The position numbers and the translations under genes are program-made. Under the pieces are notes generated by a model. It was not told where the DNA came from. It did no database searches and worked only from the letters and a program-made list of their open reading frames with translations. From an uncultured bacterium (GTDB lineage: Bacteria > CALINM01), in contig CALINM010000086.1 in NCBI GenBank assembly GCA_938045315.1, positions 1 through 5,426 of the forward strand: a stretch of 5,426 nucleotides of DNA. The letters run 5' to 3'. This document shows positions 1 to 5,426 of the stretch, piece after piece (position 1 is the first letter of the stretch; the number at the start of each line of letters is the position of its first letter).

Positions 1-501
1 GATTCTTATTGGTATGCCATTTATGTTAAGGCAAAGCATGAATTCATTGTTCGTGATAGGCTTTTAAGGTCAGGCATTGATGTCTTTCTTCCCGCTGTGG
101 AACGCCTGAGTAAATGGAAGGACAGAAAAAAAGTGATTCAATGCCCTCTTTTCCCTGGATATCTATTTGTAAATATTAAAAGGACTTATGATGAAATAAT
201 AACAGTGCTACGAACACCTGGGGTTGTAAGATTTCTCGGCTTTGAACCTAGGAATCCTGAGATAATTCCTGAGGAACAGATATATTCTCTAAAAAAACTT
301 ATTGAGAGTAGAGACCAATTAGACCCTTACCCTTACATAAAGGAGGGACAAATGGTCAGAGTTAAAAGAGGACCACTTAACGGAGCTAAAGGCATTCTTA
401 TAGAAAAAGAAGACAAACATATCTTTATTGTTTCTATCCACATACTCAGAAGGTCTATAGCTGTAAAGATAGATGCCTATGATGTAGAGGTATTGGTCTA
501 A
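1..501 (+). CDS. NusG-family transcription antiterminator (UpxY/RfaH-like paralog), 5' end missing
   Basis: The reading frame is open from base 1 to the TAA at 499-501, giving 166 residues. The GTG at 97 is only an internal codon. The NusG N-terminal (NGN) domain is already under way at the window edge (W4-Y-A-I-Y-V-K10), so probably only a few residues are missing. NGN landmarks are F51-P-G-Y-L-F-V57 and T72-P-G-V-V-R-F78. A linker rich in Pro and Ile follows, then a C-terminal KOW domain from about I113 to V166, including R123-G-P-L-N-G128. Family members bind elongating RNA polymerase through the NGN domain, and the KOW domain contacts Rho, NusE or ribosomes. Specialised paralogs such as UpxY, RfaH and LoaP promote transcription through long polysaccharide operons. 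Placement directly before sugar-nucleotide genes favours a paralog over housekeeping nusG, which normally lies by secE and rplK. Which subfamily it belongs to, and whether its KOW domain changes fold as in RfaH, cannot be read here. Confidence 0.9.
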   Translation, partial: DSYWYAIYVKAKHEFIVRDRLLRSGIDVFLPAVERLSKWKDRKKVIQCPLFPGYLFVNIKRTYDEIITVLRTPGVVRFLGFEPRNPEIIPEEQIYSLKKLIESRDQLDPYPYIKEGQMVRVKRGPLNGAKGILIEKEDKHIFIVSIHILRRSIAVKIDAYDVEVLV

Positions 502-537: not shown

Positions 538-1881
538 TTGATTACAGATATGGTAAATCAAAATGGATATGATCTTAAAGAGGAATTGAAGGAAAAGATC
601 GTTCAAAGAAAAGCTGTAATTGGCATAATAGGTTTGGGATATGTAGGACTCCCATTGGTCATAGAATTTGCAAAGGCTGGTTTTAAAGTAAGGGGCTTTG
701 ACATTGATAAGAAGAAGATTCAGATTCTTCAGAATGGAGAATCTTACATAAAACACATAAAGTCTGAAATGATTAAAGATATCCTGCCAGGGTTTGAGCC
801 TACCTCAGATTTTTCAAGGCTTGGTAATGTGGATATAATTATTATCTGTGTACCTACCCCATTAACTCCACATAAAGAGCCAGACATGAAATATGTGTTT
901 AACACAGGAAAGGAAATATCTAGATATCTTAAGAAGGGGCAGCTTATAGTCCTTGAGTCCACTACCTATCCTGGCACAACAGACGAGGATTTAAGAGCTA
1001 TCCTGGAAGAGTCCGGGCTCAAGGCTGGTTGTGATTTTTTCTTAGCTTATTCCCCTGAAAGAGAAGATCCTGGTAATAAAGAATTCAGCACATCAAGGAT
1101 TCCCAAGGTTGTTGGAGGATTCACAACCTACTGTTTGGAAGTCGCCACAACCCTATACGATCAGATTGTGATCAAAACAATCCCTGTATCCTCTACAAAA
1201 GTGGCTGAGGCTGTTAAATTATTAGAAAATATTTACCGTGCAATTAACATTGCTTTGGTAAACGAACTAAAGATACTCTTTGGTAGAATGGGGATAGATA
1301 TCTGGGAAGTTATAGAAGCTGCACGGACAAAACCCTTTGGATTCCAAGCCTTCTATCCAGGACCCGGCCTTGGAGGACATTGCATTCCCATAGATCCCTT
1401 TTATCTCACATGGAAAGCTCGGGAATACGATTTTCATACAAGATTTATCGAACTTGCAGGCGAGATAAACGATTATATGCCTTATTATGTCGTAGAAAAA
1501 ACTGTAGAGGCACTAAACCACAGGGGTATGTCTATAAAAGGAGCAAAAATCTTGATACTTGGCATAGCATATAAAAAGGATGTGGATGATGCAAGGGAGT
1601 CGCCTGCCTTTAAAATAATGGAACTTCTTGAAAAGAAGGGAGCCGAAGTTGATTATAATGACCCTTATTTTCCTGAACTTCCACATACAAGAAAATATAA
1701 ATATCAGAAAAAATCTGTTGAGCTTCTTTCAGAGAATCTTAAAAGATTTGACTGCGTGATAGTAGTTACAGATCATAGCTTTTATGACCCAAATTTTATA
1801 GCAGAACATTCATCGCTGATTATTGACACCAGAAATTTAATAAAGAATAACAAATATATTGCAAAGGTAGTAAAGGCATAA
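538..1881 (+). CDS. wbpA: UDP-N-acetylglucosamine 6-dehydrogenase (WbpA type)
   Basis: This 447-residue protein belongs to the UDP-glucose/GDP-mannose dehydrogenase family. It should oxidise C6 of UDP-GlcNAc twice with NAD+ to give UDP-GlcNAcA in the cytoplasm. An N-terminal Rossmann fold carries G32-L-G-Y-V-G37 and the acidic D55/D57 after the second strand. The central domain carries the catalytic pair K227 and N231 (AEAVK-LLEN) and the nucleophile C282 in G-G-H-C-I-P-I-D-P. A C-terminal UDP-binding Rossmann domain begins near G-A-K-I-L-I-L-G. All key residues are present and the length is close to P. aeruginosa WbpA (about 436). About 20 polar residues precede the Rossmann fold. The TTG start is set by the SD at 523-530. 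Related enzymes act on UDP-ManNAc (WecC) or UDP-glucose (Ugd). The downstream wbpB, D, E and I type genes are the main reason for choosing UDP-GlcNAc, and sequence alone does not prove it. Confidence 0.88.
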   Translation: MITDMVNQNGYDLKEELKEKIVQRKAVIGIIGLGYVGLPLVIEFAKAGFKVRGFDIDKKKIQILQNGESYIKHIKSEMIKDILPGFEPTSDFSRLGNVDIIIICVPTPLTPHKEPDMKYVFNTGKEISRYLKKGQLIVLESTTYPGTTDEDLRAILEESGLKAGCDFFLAYSPEREDPGNKEFSTSRIPKVVGGFTTYCLEVATTLYDQIVIKTIPVSSTKVAEAVKLLENIYRAINIALVNELKILFGRMGIDIWEVIEAARTKPFGFQAFYPGPGLGGHCIPIDPFYLTWKAREYDFHTRFIELAGEINDYMPYYVVEKTVEALNHRGMSIKGAKILILGIAYKKDVDDARESPAFKIMELLEKKGAEVDYNDPYFPELPHTRKYKYQKKSVELLSENLKRFDCVIVVTDHSFYDPNFIAEHSSLIIDTRNLIKNNKYIAKVVKA

Positions 1882-1909: not shown

Positions 1910-3484
1910 ATGCAAGATAAATTTATTGCCCAGGTTGGTTTAGGTTATTGGGGAAAGAATATCTTTAGGAATCTTTATGAGCTTAATATCCTTCGTGTAG
2001 CATGCGACCTAAACTTAAAACTTCTTAATCAATACAAAGCTAAATTTCCAAATATAAATTTTACCTCGGACTTTAAAGAAGTTCTTAAAAACCCTGAAAT
2101 CAAGGCTGTAGTAATTTCAACTCCTGCTCAGTTACATTATGAAATGGCAAAAGAAGCCCTCCTTGCAGGAAAGGATGTATTTGTAGAAAAACCACTTGCC
2201 CTGAGTGCCAAAGAGGGTGAAGAGCTTGTTAAATTGGCAGAGGAAAAAGATAAAGTGCTTATGGTGGGGCACATCCTTCAATATCACCCAGCGGTAGAGA
2301 AGCTTAAGGAATTGATTTTAAATGGTAGCCTTGGAAAGATTCAATACATCTACTCCAATAGACTTAATATCGGAAAGTTGAGGACAGAAGAGAATGTTCT
2401 CTGGAGTTTTGCACCCCATGATATTTCTTTGATACTCATGCTTGTTGGGGAAGAACCGAAAGGAGTATATGCTTGGGGTGGAGATTATGTTAATAAAGGA
2501 ATTTATGACACTACAATCACCATACTAGAATTTTCCAATGATGTAAAGGCACATATATTTGTAAGCTGGTTACATCCTTTTAAGGAACAAAAACTTGTCA
2601 TAATAGGAACTCAGGCTATGGTAGTATTTGATGATACAACTAAAGAAAAGCTATTTCTTTATCCTCATAAAATCAATTGGAGAGAAGGCAAAATTCCTGT
2701 TGCAAATAAAGCAGAATATCAGGTTATCCCTATAGAAGATAGAGAACCTTTAAAAGTTGAGCTTATGCATTTTTTAGAATGTGTCCTTAAAAGGAAAAAG
2801 CCACTAACAGATGGACGAGAGGGATTGAAAGTTCTTCGAATTCTGGAACAAGCTCAGAAGCTTCTATTAAATTCCCCCTTCGCCCGAATATTTCCCTTAG
2901 AAGACAAAAAATATTTTGTTCACGAATCTGCTTTTATAGATGAGAATGTACAGATAAATGAAGGTACCAAAATTTGGCATTTTACACATATTTTAAAAGG
3001 TACAAAAATTGGCAAAGACTGCGTAATTGGACAGAATTGCATGATAGGACCTGATGTGACAGTGGGTAATAGGTGTAAAATTCAAAACAATGTGTCAATA
3101 TATAAAGGTGTGACTTTAGAAGACGATGTTTTTTGTGGTCCCTCTTGTGTTTTTACTAATGTATATAATCCAAGGGCATTTATAGAAAGGAAGCATGAGT
3201 TCTTACCAACCCTTGTTAAAAGAGGGGCAACAATTGGAGCAAATGCCACGATTGTTTGTGGTATTACGATTGGCAGGTATGCTATGGTAGGAGCAGGGGC
3301 AGTGGTAAAGAAGGATGTTCCAGATTATGCAATAGTAGCTGGAGTTCCTGCCAGACAGATTGGTTGGGCATGCAAATGTGGGGTGACTTTAAAATTTAAT
3401 AAAAATCATGCTTTTTGTAAAAACTGCCACAACGAATACGAATTAAAAGATAATACTATCATTGTTATCAAGGAGAATAATTAG
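1910..3484 (+). CDS. wbpB-wbpD: Bifunctional UDP-GlcNAcA 3-dehydrogenase / UDP-GlcNAc(3NH2)A N-acetyltransferase (WbpB-WbpD fusion)
   Basis: This 524-residue protein has two catalytic parts. Residues 1-330 are a Gfo/Idh/MocA oxidoreductase like WbpB/WlbA. It has the NAD-binding G10-L-G-Y-W-G15, the E93-K94-P95 motif with its catalytic-type lysine, and H170 in A-P-H-D, where WlbA enzymes have an active-site His. This part should oxidise C3 of UDP-GlcNAcA to the 3-keto sugar. Residues about 335-485 are a left-handed beta-helix of hexapeptide repeats like WbpD/WlbB, starting Y335-F-V-H-E-S-A-F-I. This part should acetylate the 3-amino group using acetyl-CoA. The tail carries C488-x-C490 and C503-x-x-C506, a likely zinc ribbon. 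In P. aeruginosa the two activities are separate proteins of about 316 and 191 residues, whose sum is close to 524. There is no stop, SD or Met at the boundary: in-frame Met is absent between M286 and M378. The fusion therefore looks genuine. The aminotransferase that must act between the two steps follows directly. Confidence 0.9.
2912..3364 (+). other. Left-handed beta-helix acetyltransferase domain within the fusion
   Basis: Residues about 335-485 of the fusion protein show repeated I/V-G-x-x-hexad turns, for example [12 protein letters not shown] and I-G-A-N-A-T. There is also a WHFTHI segment and a loop (N-V-Y-N-P-R-A-F) that is typical of the WbpD/WlbB/WxcM N-terminal group. The end, [13 protein letters not shown], is the usual acetyl-CoA-side close of hexapeptide acyltransferases. 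Members form trimers with active sites between subunits. Family membership is clear. The exact acceptor (3-amino of UDP-GlcNAc3NH2A) is inferred from the neighbouring genes. Confidence 0.85.
3371..3427 (+). other. Four-cysteine zinc-ribbon-like tail of the fusion protein
   Basis: Just after the hexapeptide domain lie C488-K-C490 and C503-K-N-C506, 12 residues apart, followed by a short polar end. Two close cysteine pairs with a Lys/Asn-rich knuckle between them fit a rubredoxin/zinc-ribbon metal site. P. aeruginosa WbpD, as I recall it, lacks such a tail, though I believe some other WbpD-like proteins have one. A role in stability or contact with a partner enzyme is inference. Confidence 0.55.
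3470..3475 (+). promoter_or_regulatory. Shine-Dalgarno for the aminotransferase, inside the fusion gene's 3' end
   Basis: AAGGAG lies 9 nt before the ATG at 3485 and within the last codons of the upstream gene. The upstream stop TAG (3482-3484) directly abuts this ATG, so the intergenic distance is zero and ribosomes can re-initiate. The arrangement suggests coupled translation of the fusion enzyme and the aminotransferase. Confidence 0.7.
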
Positions 3485-4630
3485 ATGGCCAAAATACCCA
3501 TGCTTGATTTATATGCTGAATATTTGTACATGAAAGAGGAGATTGATTCTGCTATTAGAAGATGCTTAGAGCATCAAAAATGGATCCTTGGCCCAGAAGT
3601 GAAAGAATTAGAGAATAAAATAGCTGATTATATGGAGGTAAAGCATTGTATTGGTTGCTCCTCTGGCACAGATGCTCTTGTTCTTGCCTTAAGGGCTTTA
3701 GCTATAAGAACTAAAGGGAAAGAATATTTTGATAGAGAAGATGAGATTATAACAACTCCCTTCACTTTCACGGCAACAGGGGATGCTATTTTAAGGGCAG
3801 GAGCAACTCCTGTTTTCGTAGACATAGATCCAGAAACTTTTAATATTGATCCTGCTAAAATAATGGGATATTTAAAAAGGAATTCTGGTAGAGTTATAGG
3901 AATTATTCCTGTTCATCTATATGGGCAGGCTTGTGAAATGAATGAAATTATAAGAATTGCCAATGAATATGACCTCTTCATAGTGGAAGATGTAGCCCAG
4001 GCATTTGGAGGCAAGTGGCTTGATAGAAAGCTTGGCTCAATAGGAGTAGTGGGGTGCTTTAGTTTTTTTCCTTCTAAAAATCTTGGAGGTTTTGGTGATG
4101 GCGGAATGGTAGCAACAAATGATGATCAAATTGCAGAGCTTGTACGGATGCTTATAAAACACGGGGGAAAAGACAAATACAATGTTGAACATATTGGCTA
4201 TAACGCCCGTCTTGATACTCTGCAAGCAGCCATTATATTGGTAAAATTTAAATATGTGGATAGATTCAATGAATTAAGGAGAGGAATAGCAGAGGCTTAC
4301 AACAAGGGGCTTTCGGGATTCGAAGGCATAGTTTTGCCTAAGGTATACGAAAAGGCTTATCATGTTTACCATCAATATACAATTAGGTTGAGAGACAACA
4401 GAAGAGCTGAATTGCAGGAGAGATTAAGAGAAGTAGGAATTCAAAGTATGGTATATTATCCCTATCCTTTGCATAAAATGAGGGTATTTGAGGGAAGGTG
4501 CAAGGTATTTGAAAATCTAAAAGAGGCGGAAAAGGCTTCAAAAGAGGTCCTCAGCCTTCCCATAGAGCCTCTTATGAAGGAAGAAGAAGTTTACAGGGTA
4601 GTTGATGCAATAAGGGAGTTTTATAAATGA
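3485..4630 (+). CDS. wbpE: PLP-dependent UDP-3-keto-GlcNAcA aminotransferase (WbpE/WlbC type, DegT/DnrJ/EryC1/StrS family)
   Basis: This 381-residue cytoplasmic enzyme should transfer an amino group from glutamate to the C3 ketone of UDP-3-keto-GlcNAcA, giving UDP-GlcNAc(3NH2)A. Fold-type I PLP features are all visible: the phosphate-binding S-S-G-T-D-A-L near residue 60, the T-T-P-F-T-F-T-A-T segment, the V-E-D-V-A-Q-A acidic motif, and the Schiff-base lysine K198 in F-F-P-S-K-N-L-G-G. The N-A-R-L-D-T-L-Q-A-A segment is also typical. It is about 20 residues longer than P. aeruginosa WbpE (359), partly through a charged insert at about residues 75-85. The start is the ATG abutting the previous stop, supported by AAGGAG upstream. 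The gene sits directly after the enzyme that makes its substrate and uses its product, and overlaps the epimerase gene by 4 nt. Related family members aminate C4 or other keto sugars, so C3 specificity rests on context. Confidence 0.9.
   Translation: MAKIPMLDLYAEYLYMKEEIDSAIRRCLEHQKWILGPEVKELENKIADYMEVKHCIGCSSGTDALVLALRALAIRTKGKEYFDREDEIITTPFTFTATGDAILRAGATPVFVDIDPETFNIDPAKIMGYLKRNSGRVIGIIPVHLYGQACEMNEIIRIANEYDLFIVEDVAQAFGGKWLDRKLGSIGVVGCFSFFPSKNLGGFGDGGMVATNDDQIAELVRMLIKHGGKDKYNVEHIGYNARLDTLQAAIILVKFKYVDRFNELRRGIAEAYNKGLSGFEGIVLPKVYEKAYHVYHQYTIRLRDNRRAELQERLREVGIQSMVYYPYPLHKMRVFEGRCKVFENLKEAEKASKEVLSLPIEPLMKEEEVYRVVDAIREFYK
4614..4630 (+). promoter_or_regulatory. Ribosome binding site and ATGA start/stop overlap for the epimerase
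   Basis: GGGAG at 4614-4618 lies 8 nt before the ATG at 4627. That ATG shares bases with the aminotransferase stop TGA (4628-4630), forming ATGA. This is the classic arrangement for translational coupling and fixes the epimerase start. Confidence 0.75.
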
Positions 4631-5426
4631 AAATAGTAAGTATAGTTGGTGCAAGACCGCAGTTTATAAAACTTATGCCTATAGTTAGGGCAGTTGAAAA
4701 ATTTAATATAGAGAGAAACTTTGGAATTCAACATATTATCACTCACACGGGTCAACATTATGACTACTTAATGAATAAAGTATTTTTTGATGAGCTTGGA
4801 CTTCCAAAACCCAATTATAATCTGGAAGTTGGCTCTGGCACCCACGGCTATCAGACAGGAGAAATGATAAAAAGAATTGAAGAGGTCTTATTAAAAGAAA
4901 AACCAGATATTGGTTTAGTCTATGGAGACACGAATTCAACCCTTGCTGGTGCTTTAGCAGCAGTAAAACTTCATATACCCGTTGCTCATATTGAAGCAGG
5001 ATTAAGGAGTTTTAACAAGCGTATGCCAGAGGAGATAAATAGAGTCTTAACAGATCATATCTCAGATTACCTTTTTTGTCCTACTGAAACCGCCCTGAAA
5101 AATCTTGAAAGAGAAGGGATAACTAAAGGAGTTTATTTTGTAGGAGATGTAATGTATGATGCAGTGCTTATGAGCTTGGAGATAGCTGAAAGAAAAAAGA
5201 TAGACATTCTCGAAAACCTAAACTTAAAGCCAAAAGAATATGCCCTTGCCACAGTTCATAGAGCAGAAAACACAGATGTCCCTGAAAGATTATTTTCCAT
5301 CTTTTCCGCTTTAAAAGAAATTGCAAGTAACGGTTTACCAGTAGCAGTTACCCTTCATCCAAGAACAAGAAATGCTTTAGATACTTTATCGTTCTTTAAA
5401 AATACATTACCACAGGGTCTTCGCAT
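4627..5426 (+). CDS. wbpI: Non-hydrolysing UDP-sugar 2-epimerase (WbpI/WlbD type), 3' end missing
   Basis: The frame stays open from ATG 4627 to the window end, giving 266 residues plus two bases. Family members run to about 355, so roughly 90 residues are lost. The protein belongs to the UDP-GlcNAc 2-epimerase superfamily (GT-B fold, cytoplasmic). Visible motifs are V7-G-A-R-P-Q-F-I-K15, T41-G-Q-H-Y-D46, G100-D-T-N-S104, H121-I-E-A-G-L-R127, P134-E-E-I-N-R139, V210-H-R-A-E-N215 and H244-P-R-T247. These cover the acidic residues (D101, E123, E136) and the His (H211) that correspond to catalytic or UDP-binding positions in the family. The short S128-F-N-K-R-M-P134 loop differs from the longer loop of WecB, as I recall it, and fits the WbpI group. 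In this operon the predicted reaction is inversion of C2 of UDP-2,3-diacetamido-glucuronate to the D-manno form. A plain UDP-GlcNAc 2-epimerase is the main alternative. Confidence 0.87.
   Translation, partial: MKIVSIVGARPQFIKLMPIVRAVEKFNIERNFGIQHIITHTGQHYDYLMNKVFFDELGLPKPNYNLEVGSGTHGYQTGEMIKRIEEVLLKEKPDIGLVYGDTNSTLAGALAAVKLHIPVAHIEAGLRSFNKRMPEEINRVLTDHISDYLFCPTETALKNLEREGITKGVYFVGDVMYDAVLMSLEIAERKKIDILENLNLKPKEYALATVHRAENTDVPERLFSIFSALKEIASNGLPVAVTLHPRTRNALDTLSFFKNTLPQGLR

Follow-up and report, generated by a model that had tools for sequence, protein, structure and literature searches.

A pathway of five enzymes is known to end in UDP-2,3-diacetamido-2,3-dideoxy-mannuronic acid (UDP-ManNAc3NAcA), and its dehydrogenase WbpB catalyzes the oxidation of C3 of UDP-GlcNAcA, with the bound NADH being re-oxidized by 2-oxoglutarate (PMC10622841). 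Solved structures include WbpB (PDB 3oa2 from P. aeruginosa and 3o9z from T. thermophilus), WlbA (3q2k from B. pertussis and 3q2i from C. violaceum) and WlbB of Bordetella petrii (3mqg, 3mqh), which is a stand-alone protein. GnnA of Acidithiobacillus ferrooxidans (7bvj, 7bvk), a UDP-GlcNAc 3-dehydrogenase, is likewise a stand-alone enzyme. GnnA acts together with GnnB for lipid A and is not known to serve a diacetamido uronic acid.

The window (the whole 5,426-nucleotide stretch of DNA that was analysed, from an uncultured bacterium) carries five co-directional genes, and the third of these (1910..3484, + strand) is a fusion predicted from its sequence to encode a 524-aa protein made of a GnnA-like NAD-dependent nucleotide-sugar 3-dehydrogenase and a WbpD/WlbB-type 3-N-acetyltransferase. 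In the ORF listing, this frame has an ATG start, 524 codons and no internal stop. Its dehydrogenase half (aa 1-320; 1910..2869, +) is followed by a linker (about aa 321-333; 2870..2908, +), by a left-handed beta-helix N-acetyltransferase half (about aa 334-487; 2909..3370, +) and by a zinc-ribbon-like tail, CKCG...CKNC (aa 488-510; 3371..3439, +). Pfam searches detected GFO_IDH_MocA at residues 8-121 (84 bits) and GFO_IDH_MocA_C3 at residues 130-238 in the first half (PF01408/PF22725), and Hexapep from residue 346 onwards, all above their cut-offs. The first half has the Rossmann NAD domain, the EKP lysine and the active-site histidine of the Gfo/Idh/MocA superfamily: the catalytic-type residues K94 of the EKP motif (E93-K94-P95; codon 2189-2191) and H170 of a PHD motif (H170-D171; codon 2417-2419) are both near invariant among 78 fused homologues. 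Across the same 78 sequences, 85 columns of the N-terminal half and 45 of the C-terminal half were at least 97% identical, and many beta-helix glycines of the C-terminal half were near invariant; residues of catalytic type were invariant in the two halves alike. The original prediction of two enzymes in one chain, with intact motifs in both halves, was thus borne out by the intact frame, the Pfam domains and the conserved motifs.

The same prediction had assigned the first half to the WbpB type, and this assignment did not hold: the half lies outside the WbpB and WlbA subfamilies and its nearest solved fold is GnnA. As references, we used two ORFs from the sampled genomes, a canonical WbpB (locus L149, scoring 382 bits against 3oa2 of P. 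aeruginosa and 338 bits against 3o9z of T. thermophilus) and a WlbA (locus L140, scoring 455 bits against 3q2k of B. pertussis), and both fell outside the clade of the window's dehydrogenase (B) on very long branches of the B tree, WlbA doing so with a support of 99. The two WbpB structures were absent from the best 60 chains found with the N-half profile and also from the 50 rows of the structural comparison, the latter absence excluding nothing by itself. Top chains of the profile search were 3c1a and then 7bvj, the second-best whole-domain match with 107.6 bits over profile positions 2-306, and the best fold match was again GnnA 7bvj (Z 35.9, 301 residues, 2.0 A), while WlbA 3q2k reached Z 31.6. 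The best NCBIfam model was NF040723, an archaeal UDP-GlcNAc 3-dehydrogenase, with 176-179 bits, far below its cut-off of 450, and because of this score we call the half GnnA-like rather than a proven GnnA member; since its identity to GnnA is also only about 24%, its substrate cannot be read off from these matches. The N-terminal half belongs to a separate subfamily and is probably a GnnA-like 3-dehydrogenase standing in for WbpB and WlbA, with which it shares the superfamily and the expected C3 reaction on a UDP-sugar. In a 386-genome sample, canonical WbpB or a near relative occurs in 21 genomes, where no frame exceeds 385 residues, and a WlbA-like protein occurs in 42; neither was fused to the acetyltransferase (D, WbpD) in any of them. 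Among the sampled genomes, only the GnnA-like type of B was seen fused to D.

Concerning the second half, its original classification as a WbpD/WlbB-type protein was upheld. It matches Bordetella petrii WlbB (3mqg; likewise 3mqh) with 227 bits over aa 337-514 in the profile search and with 55% identity and a TM of about 0.9 by target length in the fold search, and its beta-helix and this close sequence match place it in the WbpD/WlbB group, with acetylation of UDP-GlcNAc3NA as its predicted reaction. The tail, which the original prediction had not mentioned, keeps two cysteine pairs (C488-x-C490...C503-x-x-C506) that are gone from the degenerate tail of the B. petrii protein. We considered this zinc-ribbon-like CxC...CxxC tail as a fusion-specific part and rejected the idea: it was present in 79/102 fused and 39/45 split D proteins, so it belongs to WbpD and not to the fusion. 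The idea that this WbpD is tied to one type of B was also rejected, since the D encoded beside the canonical WbpB of L149 groups with the window's D in a well-supported set of 37 on the D tree. That operon shares with the window 77% identity in D, 61% in the aminotransferase (E) and 69% in the 6-dehydrogenase (A) while its B differs, indicating that one acetyltransferase/aminotransferase/6-dehydrogenase set combines with unlike 3-dehydrogenases. Distances in the B and D trees correlated with a Spearman coefficient of 0.36 in fused proteins, equal to that of split pairs, too noisy an estimate, given the short D half, to bear on domain swapping. What we regard as the more useful result of this analysis is that the dehydrogenase is GnnA-like and that three subfamilies share one acetyltransferase; by this sequence evidence, no fewer than three subfamilies have supplied the C3-dehydrogenase of a well-studied surface-sugar pathway. 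Elsewhere, at L136:2884-4401 (-), an Abi_2 (abortive-infection-like) protein reads stop-free and in frame into a WbpD-type acetyltransferase, forming a 506-aa ORF.

The genes around the fusion suggest the pathway in which it may act. The window opens with a NusG-like antiterminator of the UpxY family (1..501, +, cut by the window start; NF033644, 128 bits for a cut-off of 100), and UpxY-family antiterminators are typical of polysaccharide operons. Next come a UDP-sugar 6-dehydrogenase of the WbpA/WecC superfamily (538..1881, +; TIGR03026, 428 bits, and Pfam) and the fusion itself. A WbpE-like DegT/DnrJ/EryC1/StrS aminotransferase (3485..4630, +) is encoded next door, as originally predicted, its start at 3485 directly following the stop codon of the fusion with no gap; it is nearer to 7b0d (337 bits, its best match) than to WbpE 3nyu (269 bits), a point against the pathway proposed below. 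The last gene encodes a non-hydrolysing 2-epimerase of the WbpI type (4627..5424, +, cut by the window end), which is closer to the characterised T. thermophilus UDP-GlcNAc3NAcA 2-epimerase 8sxv (304 bits, its best solved relative; 4neq, 263 bits) than to UDP-GlcNAc 2-epimerases (E. coli 1f6d, 101 bits). Given this type of epimerase together with the 6-dehydrogenase, aminotransferase and acetyltransferase, UDP-ManNAc3NAcA, in which the five-step pathway ends, is the likely product of the operon. Next to the fused genes of 32 wide loci, we found the aminotransferase in 20/32, the 6-dehydrogenase in 4/32 and the 2-epimerase in 4/32; because many fused loci have no neighbouring 6-dehydrogenase or epimerase, other end products are possible elsewhere. 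At two loci of one genus (L143:2660-4999 (-) and L144:4110-5999 (-)), an intein (Pfam Intein_splicing, LAGLIDADG_3) interrupts the 6-dehydrogenase encoded beside split B and D, close to the GGHC motif of its active site.

We consider it probable that the protein is a bifunctional enzyme for UDP-ManNAc3NAcA synthesis, which arose when a B-D-E operon lost a stop and which tethers its two halves flexibly. Its N-terminal half would use NAD+ to oxidize the UDP-sugar at C3, the aminotransferase, a protein of its own, would aminate the resulting 3-keto group and the C-terminal half would acetylate the new amine, so that the two fused steps flank the aminotransferase step, as the original prediction had noted. 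The neighbouring 6-dehydrogenase would provide the carboxylate and the 2-epimerase the manno configuration, giving this surface-polysaccharide sugar as the end product. B and D would have been neighbours on one strand that lost the stop codon separating them, and the resulting tether would ensure that both are made 1:1 and would concentrate steps 1 and 3 locally to some degree; a dedicated rigid three-enzyme machine is the less likely outcome.

The order of these reactions may differ from that of the Wbp pathway. If the N-terminal half takes UDP-GlcNAc as GnnA does, then C3 oxidation, amination and acetylation would precede 2-epimerisation and C6 oxidation, with the 6-dehydrogenase acting later than in the Wbp pathway and the same sugar being made. 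We regard this reordering as a real possibility, although not as the expected outcome. It is favoured by three observations: the N-terminal half is closest to GnnA and to the archaeal model for UDP-GlcNAc 3-dehydrogenases, it is separate from WbpB and WlbA, and most fused genes have no 6-dehydrogenase gene beside them. Against it, the window does have a 6-dehydrogenase gene ahead of the fusion, and the D half is interchangeable by sequence with the D found beside canonical WbpB, which uses UDP-GlcNAcA. A broader version of this scenario, to which we give less credence, is that the locus represents a widespread and apparently undescribed variant of the diacetamido-uronic acid pathway, in which WbpB/WlbA is replaced by a GnnA-like enzyme that uses UDP-GlcNAc ahead of the oxidation at C6 and has WbpD tethered to it, with the aminotransferase working between the two ends of the chain.

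The origin of the fusion could be approached through relatives in which B and D are separate genes. In split pairs with the window's type of B, the order was B-D in 24/27, with gaps mostly of -50 to +21 bp and often with E next; such B-D-E operons (for example L154, L157, L158 and L159) have the B subfamily, the D and the gene order of the window, and differ from it in having two genes that overlap or lie a few bases apart. The split B proteins end around residue 320-330 and the split D proteins start around residue 330-333 (numbering of the window protein), so the junction of the fusion falls where natural proteins end and begin. At L150:2502-4100 and L151:2523-4121, in two genomes from a single genus, the B and D genes lie in one frame with a single TAG between them and the start codon of D right after it, one substitution away from the fused state. 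Mapped on the B tree, the fused and split states switch no fewer than 10 times; the branches with good support are enough to require at least 6-7 of these switches, and the tree does not tell gains of the fusion from losses. Considering that split genes lie end to end in the B-D order, that single-TAG pairs exist and that the state changes repeatedly, a stop codon lost or gained between neighbouring genes appears to be the best explanation for these fused/split changes. Other in-frame split pairs were found at L022, L036, L050 and L055, where the search favoured one frame and the even spacing is partly a matter of selection.

These same observations would also fit a fusion with little or no functional effect, where the loss of a stop between co-transcribed neighbours was tolerated since both termini are free. 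End-to-end split genes in the same order, the single-TAG separation in two genomes, the ten or more changes of state and an unconserved linker (in the 78 fused homologues, positions 315 and 337 are 17-51 residues apart, with neither sequence nor length kept) are all what one would then expect. Against it, D and E overlap as closely as B and D do, yet no D-E frame was seen in about 170 loci, a hint of some reason why joining B to D is tolerated or favoured. Large clades are also entirely fused (49 rows in one case), although this sample was drawn with a fused query. We find a neutral fusion somewhat unlikely and keep the flexible tether as the preferred reading. One C3-dehydrogenase subfamily is repeatedly joined to the acetyltransferase, and its fused and split forms provide a natural comparison of flux with and without a tether between steps that are not consecutive.

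The original prediction had gone further and proposed a complex with the aminotransferase and, from the differing symmetries of the enzymes, an unusually large assembly. The first proposal found little backing: no ORF joins the aminotransferase to B or D, the aminotransferase is a neighbour in 20 of the 32 wide loci only, and fused and split states interchange, so that a complex with it is possible, as suggested by adjacency alone. The second was weakened by the nature of the linker. An AlphaFold2 model built with 37 fused sequences shows two well-folded domains (mean pLDDT 87.6, pTM 0.61) with a sole segment of pLDDT below 50, residues 324-331, within the linker, and its pTM would fit two domains without a fixed relative placement. 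Such a flexible linker would let a dimeric or tetrameric dehydrogenase coexist with a trimeric acetyltransferase with no need for a special particle; where a dimer is combined with a trimer, a closed set would take at least six chains. The strongest form of the proposal is that the two fused enzymes and the aminotransferase encoded next door form one large particle, in which the unstable 3-keto and free-amine intermediates are handed on without being released. The abutting aminotransferase gene, its rank as the commonest neighbour, the retention of the fusion over wide taxonomic distances and the kinetic link between dehydrogenase and aminotransferase created in P. aeruginosa when WbpB re-oxidizes NADH with 2-oxoglutarate (PMC10622841) could be explained in this way. 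Nevertheless, we consider such a particle improbable: B-E, D-E and triple fusions were all absent from about 170 loci in spite of the frequent overlap of D and E, the fused and split states swap on the B tree, a disordered and unconserved linker joins the halves, and the N-terminal half lies outside the ping-pong WbpB subfamily, so that the NADH coupling need not hold. Frames joining A or the epimerase (I) to another step were not seen either in the loci compared.

The fusion is genuine and widespread across many bacterial phyla, and is no peculiarity of one genome. A second fused copy, 67% identical, lies on another contig of the same genome (G000:C54:26153-27688), where it adjoins its own 6-dehydrogenase and 2-epimerase. 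Among the best 80 relatives in the genome collection, one frame covers both halves in 76/80 and two adjacent genes do so in 4/80, in a search whose fused query favours fused genes; these relatives belong, as judged by record title, to Nitrospirota, Thermodesulfobacteriota, Myxococcota, Planctomycetota, Acidobacteriota, Omnitrophota, Chloroflexota, Pseudomonadota and other phyla. In the 386-genome sample across Bacteria, both halves were in one stop-free frame in 23/385 other genomes (~6%, by our count of the table). The finished plasmid NZ_CP029830.1 of Azospirillum ramasamyi also encodes a fusion (WP_111068228.1, 51.5% identical to that of the window), in the order 6-dehydrogenase - fusion - aminotransferase. 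We looked for a frameshift or a stop near 2870-2930, which the original prediction had named as a possible flaw, and found none, the same in-frame junction being present in the paralogue, in 76/80 of the best loci and on the finished plasmid. Even though the window comes from a draft genome of 244 contigs, the paralogue on a different contig, some 100 additional loci with the fusion and the finished plasmid make it next to inconceivable that an assembly or sequencing error joined the two genes, and this explanation was rejected. Apparently larger fusions at G071, G341 and G101 (799-904 aa) were also set aside, as they were stop-free upstream extensions in GC-rich DNA with no extra domains by eye.

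The source lineage is sparsely sampled, with only two returned genomes sharing a genus or family with G000 and the others being related only at the domain level; at E 1e-30, the fusion matched nothing in either of these two near relatives. A literature search, with most subscription papers outside its scope (including those on WlbA, WlbB and WbpB/E/D), returned no published description of this B-D fusion, which is apparently undescribed in the literature searched and is built of known parts with a simple origin. On the Azospirillum ramasamyi plasmid, the fusion (L176:5968-7572) is annotated only as a Gfo/Idh/MocA oxidoreductase, which names the first half and leaves the acetyltransferase half unnamed, and the acetyltransferase of the pathway may be overlooked in other genomes as well.
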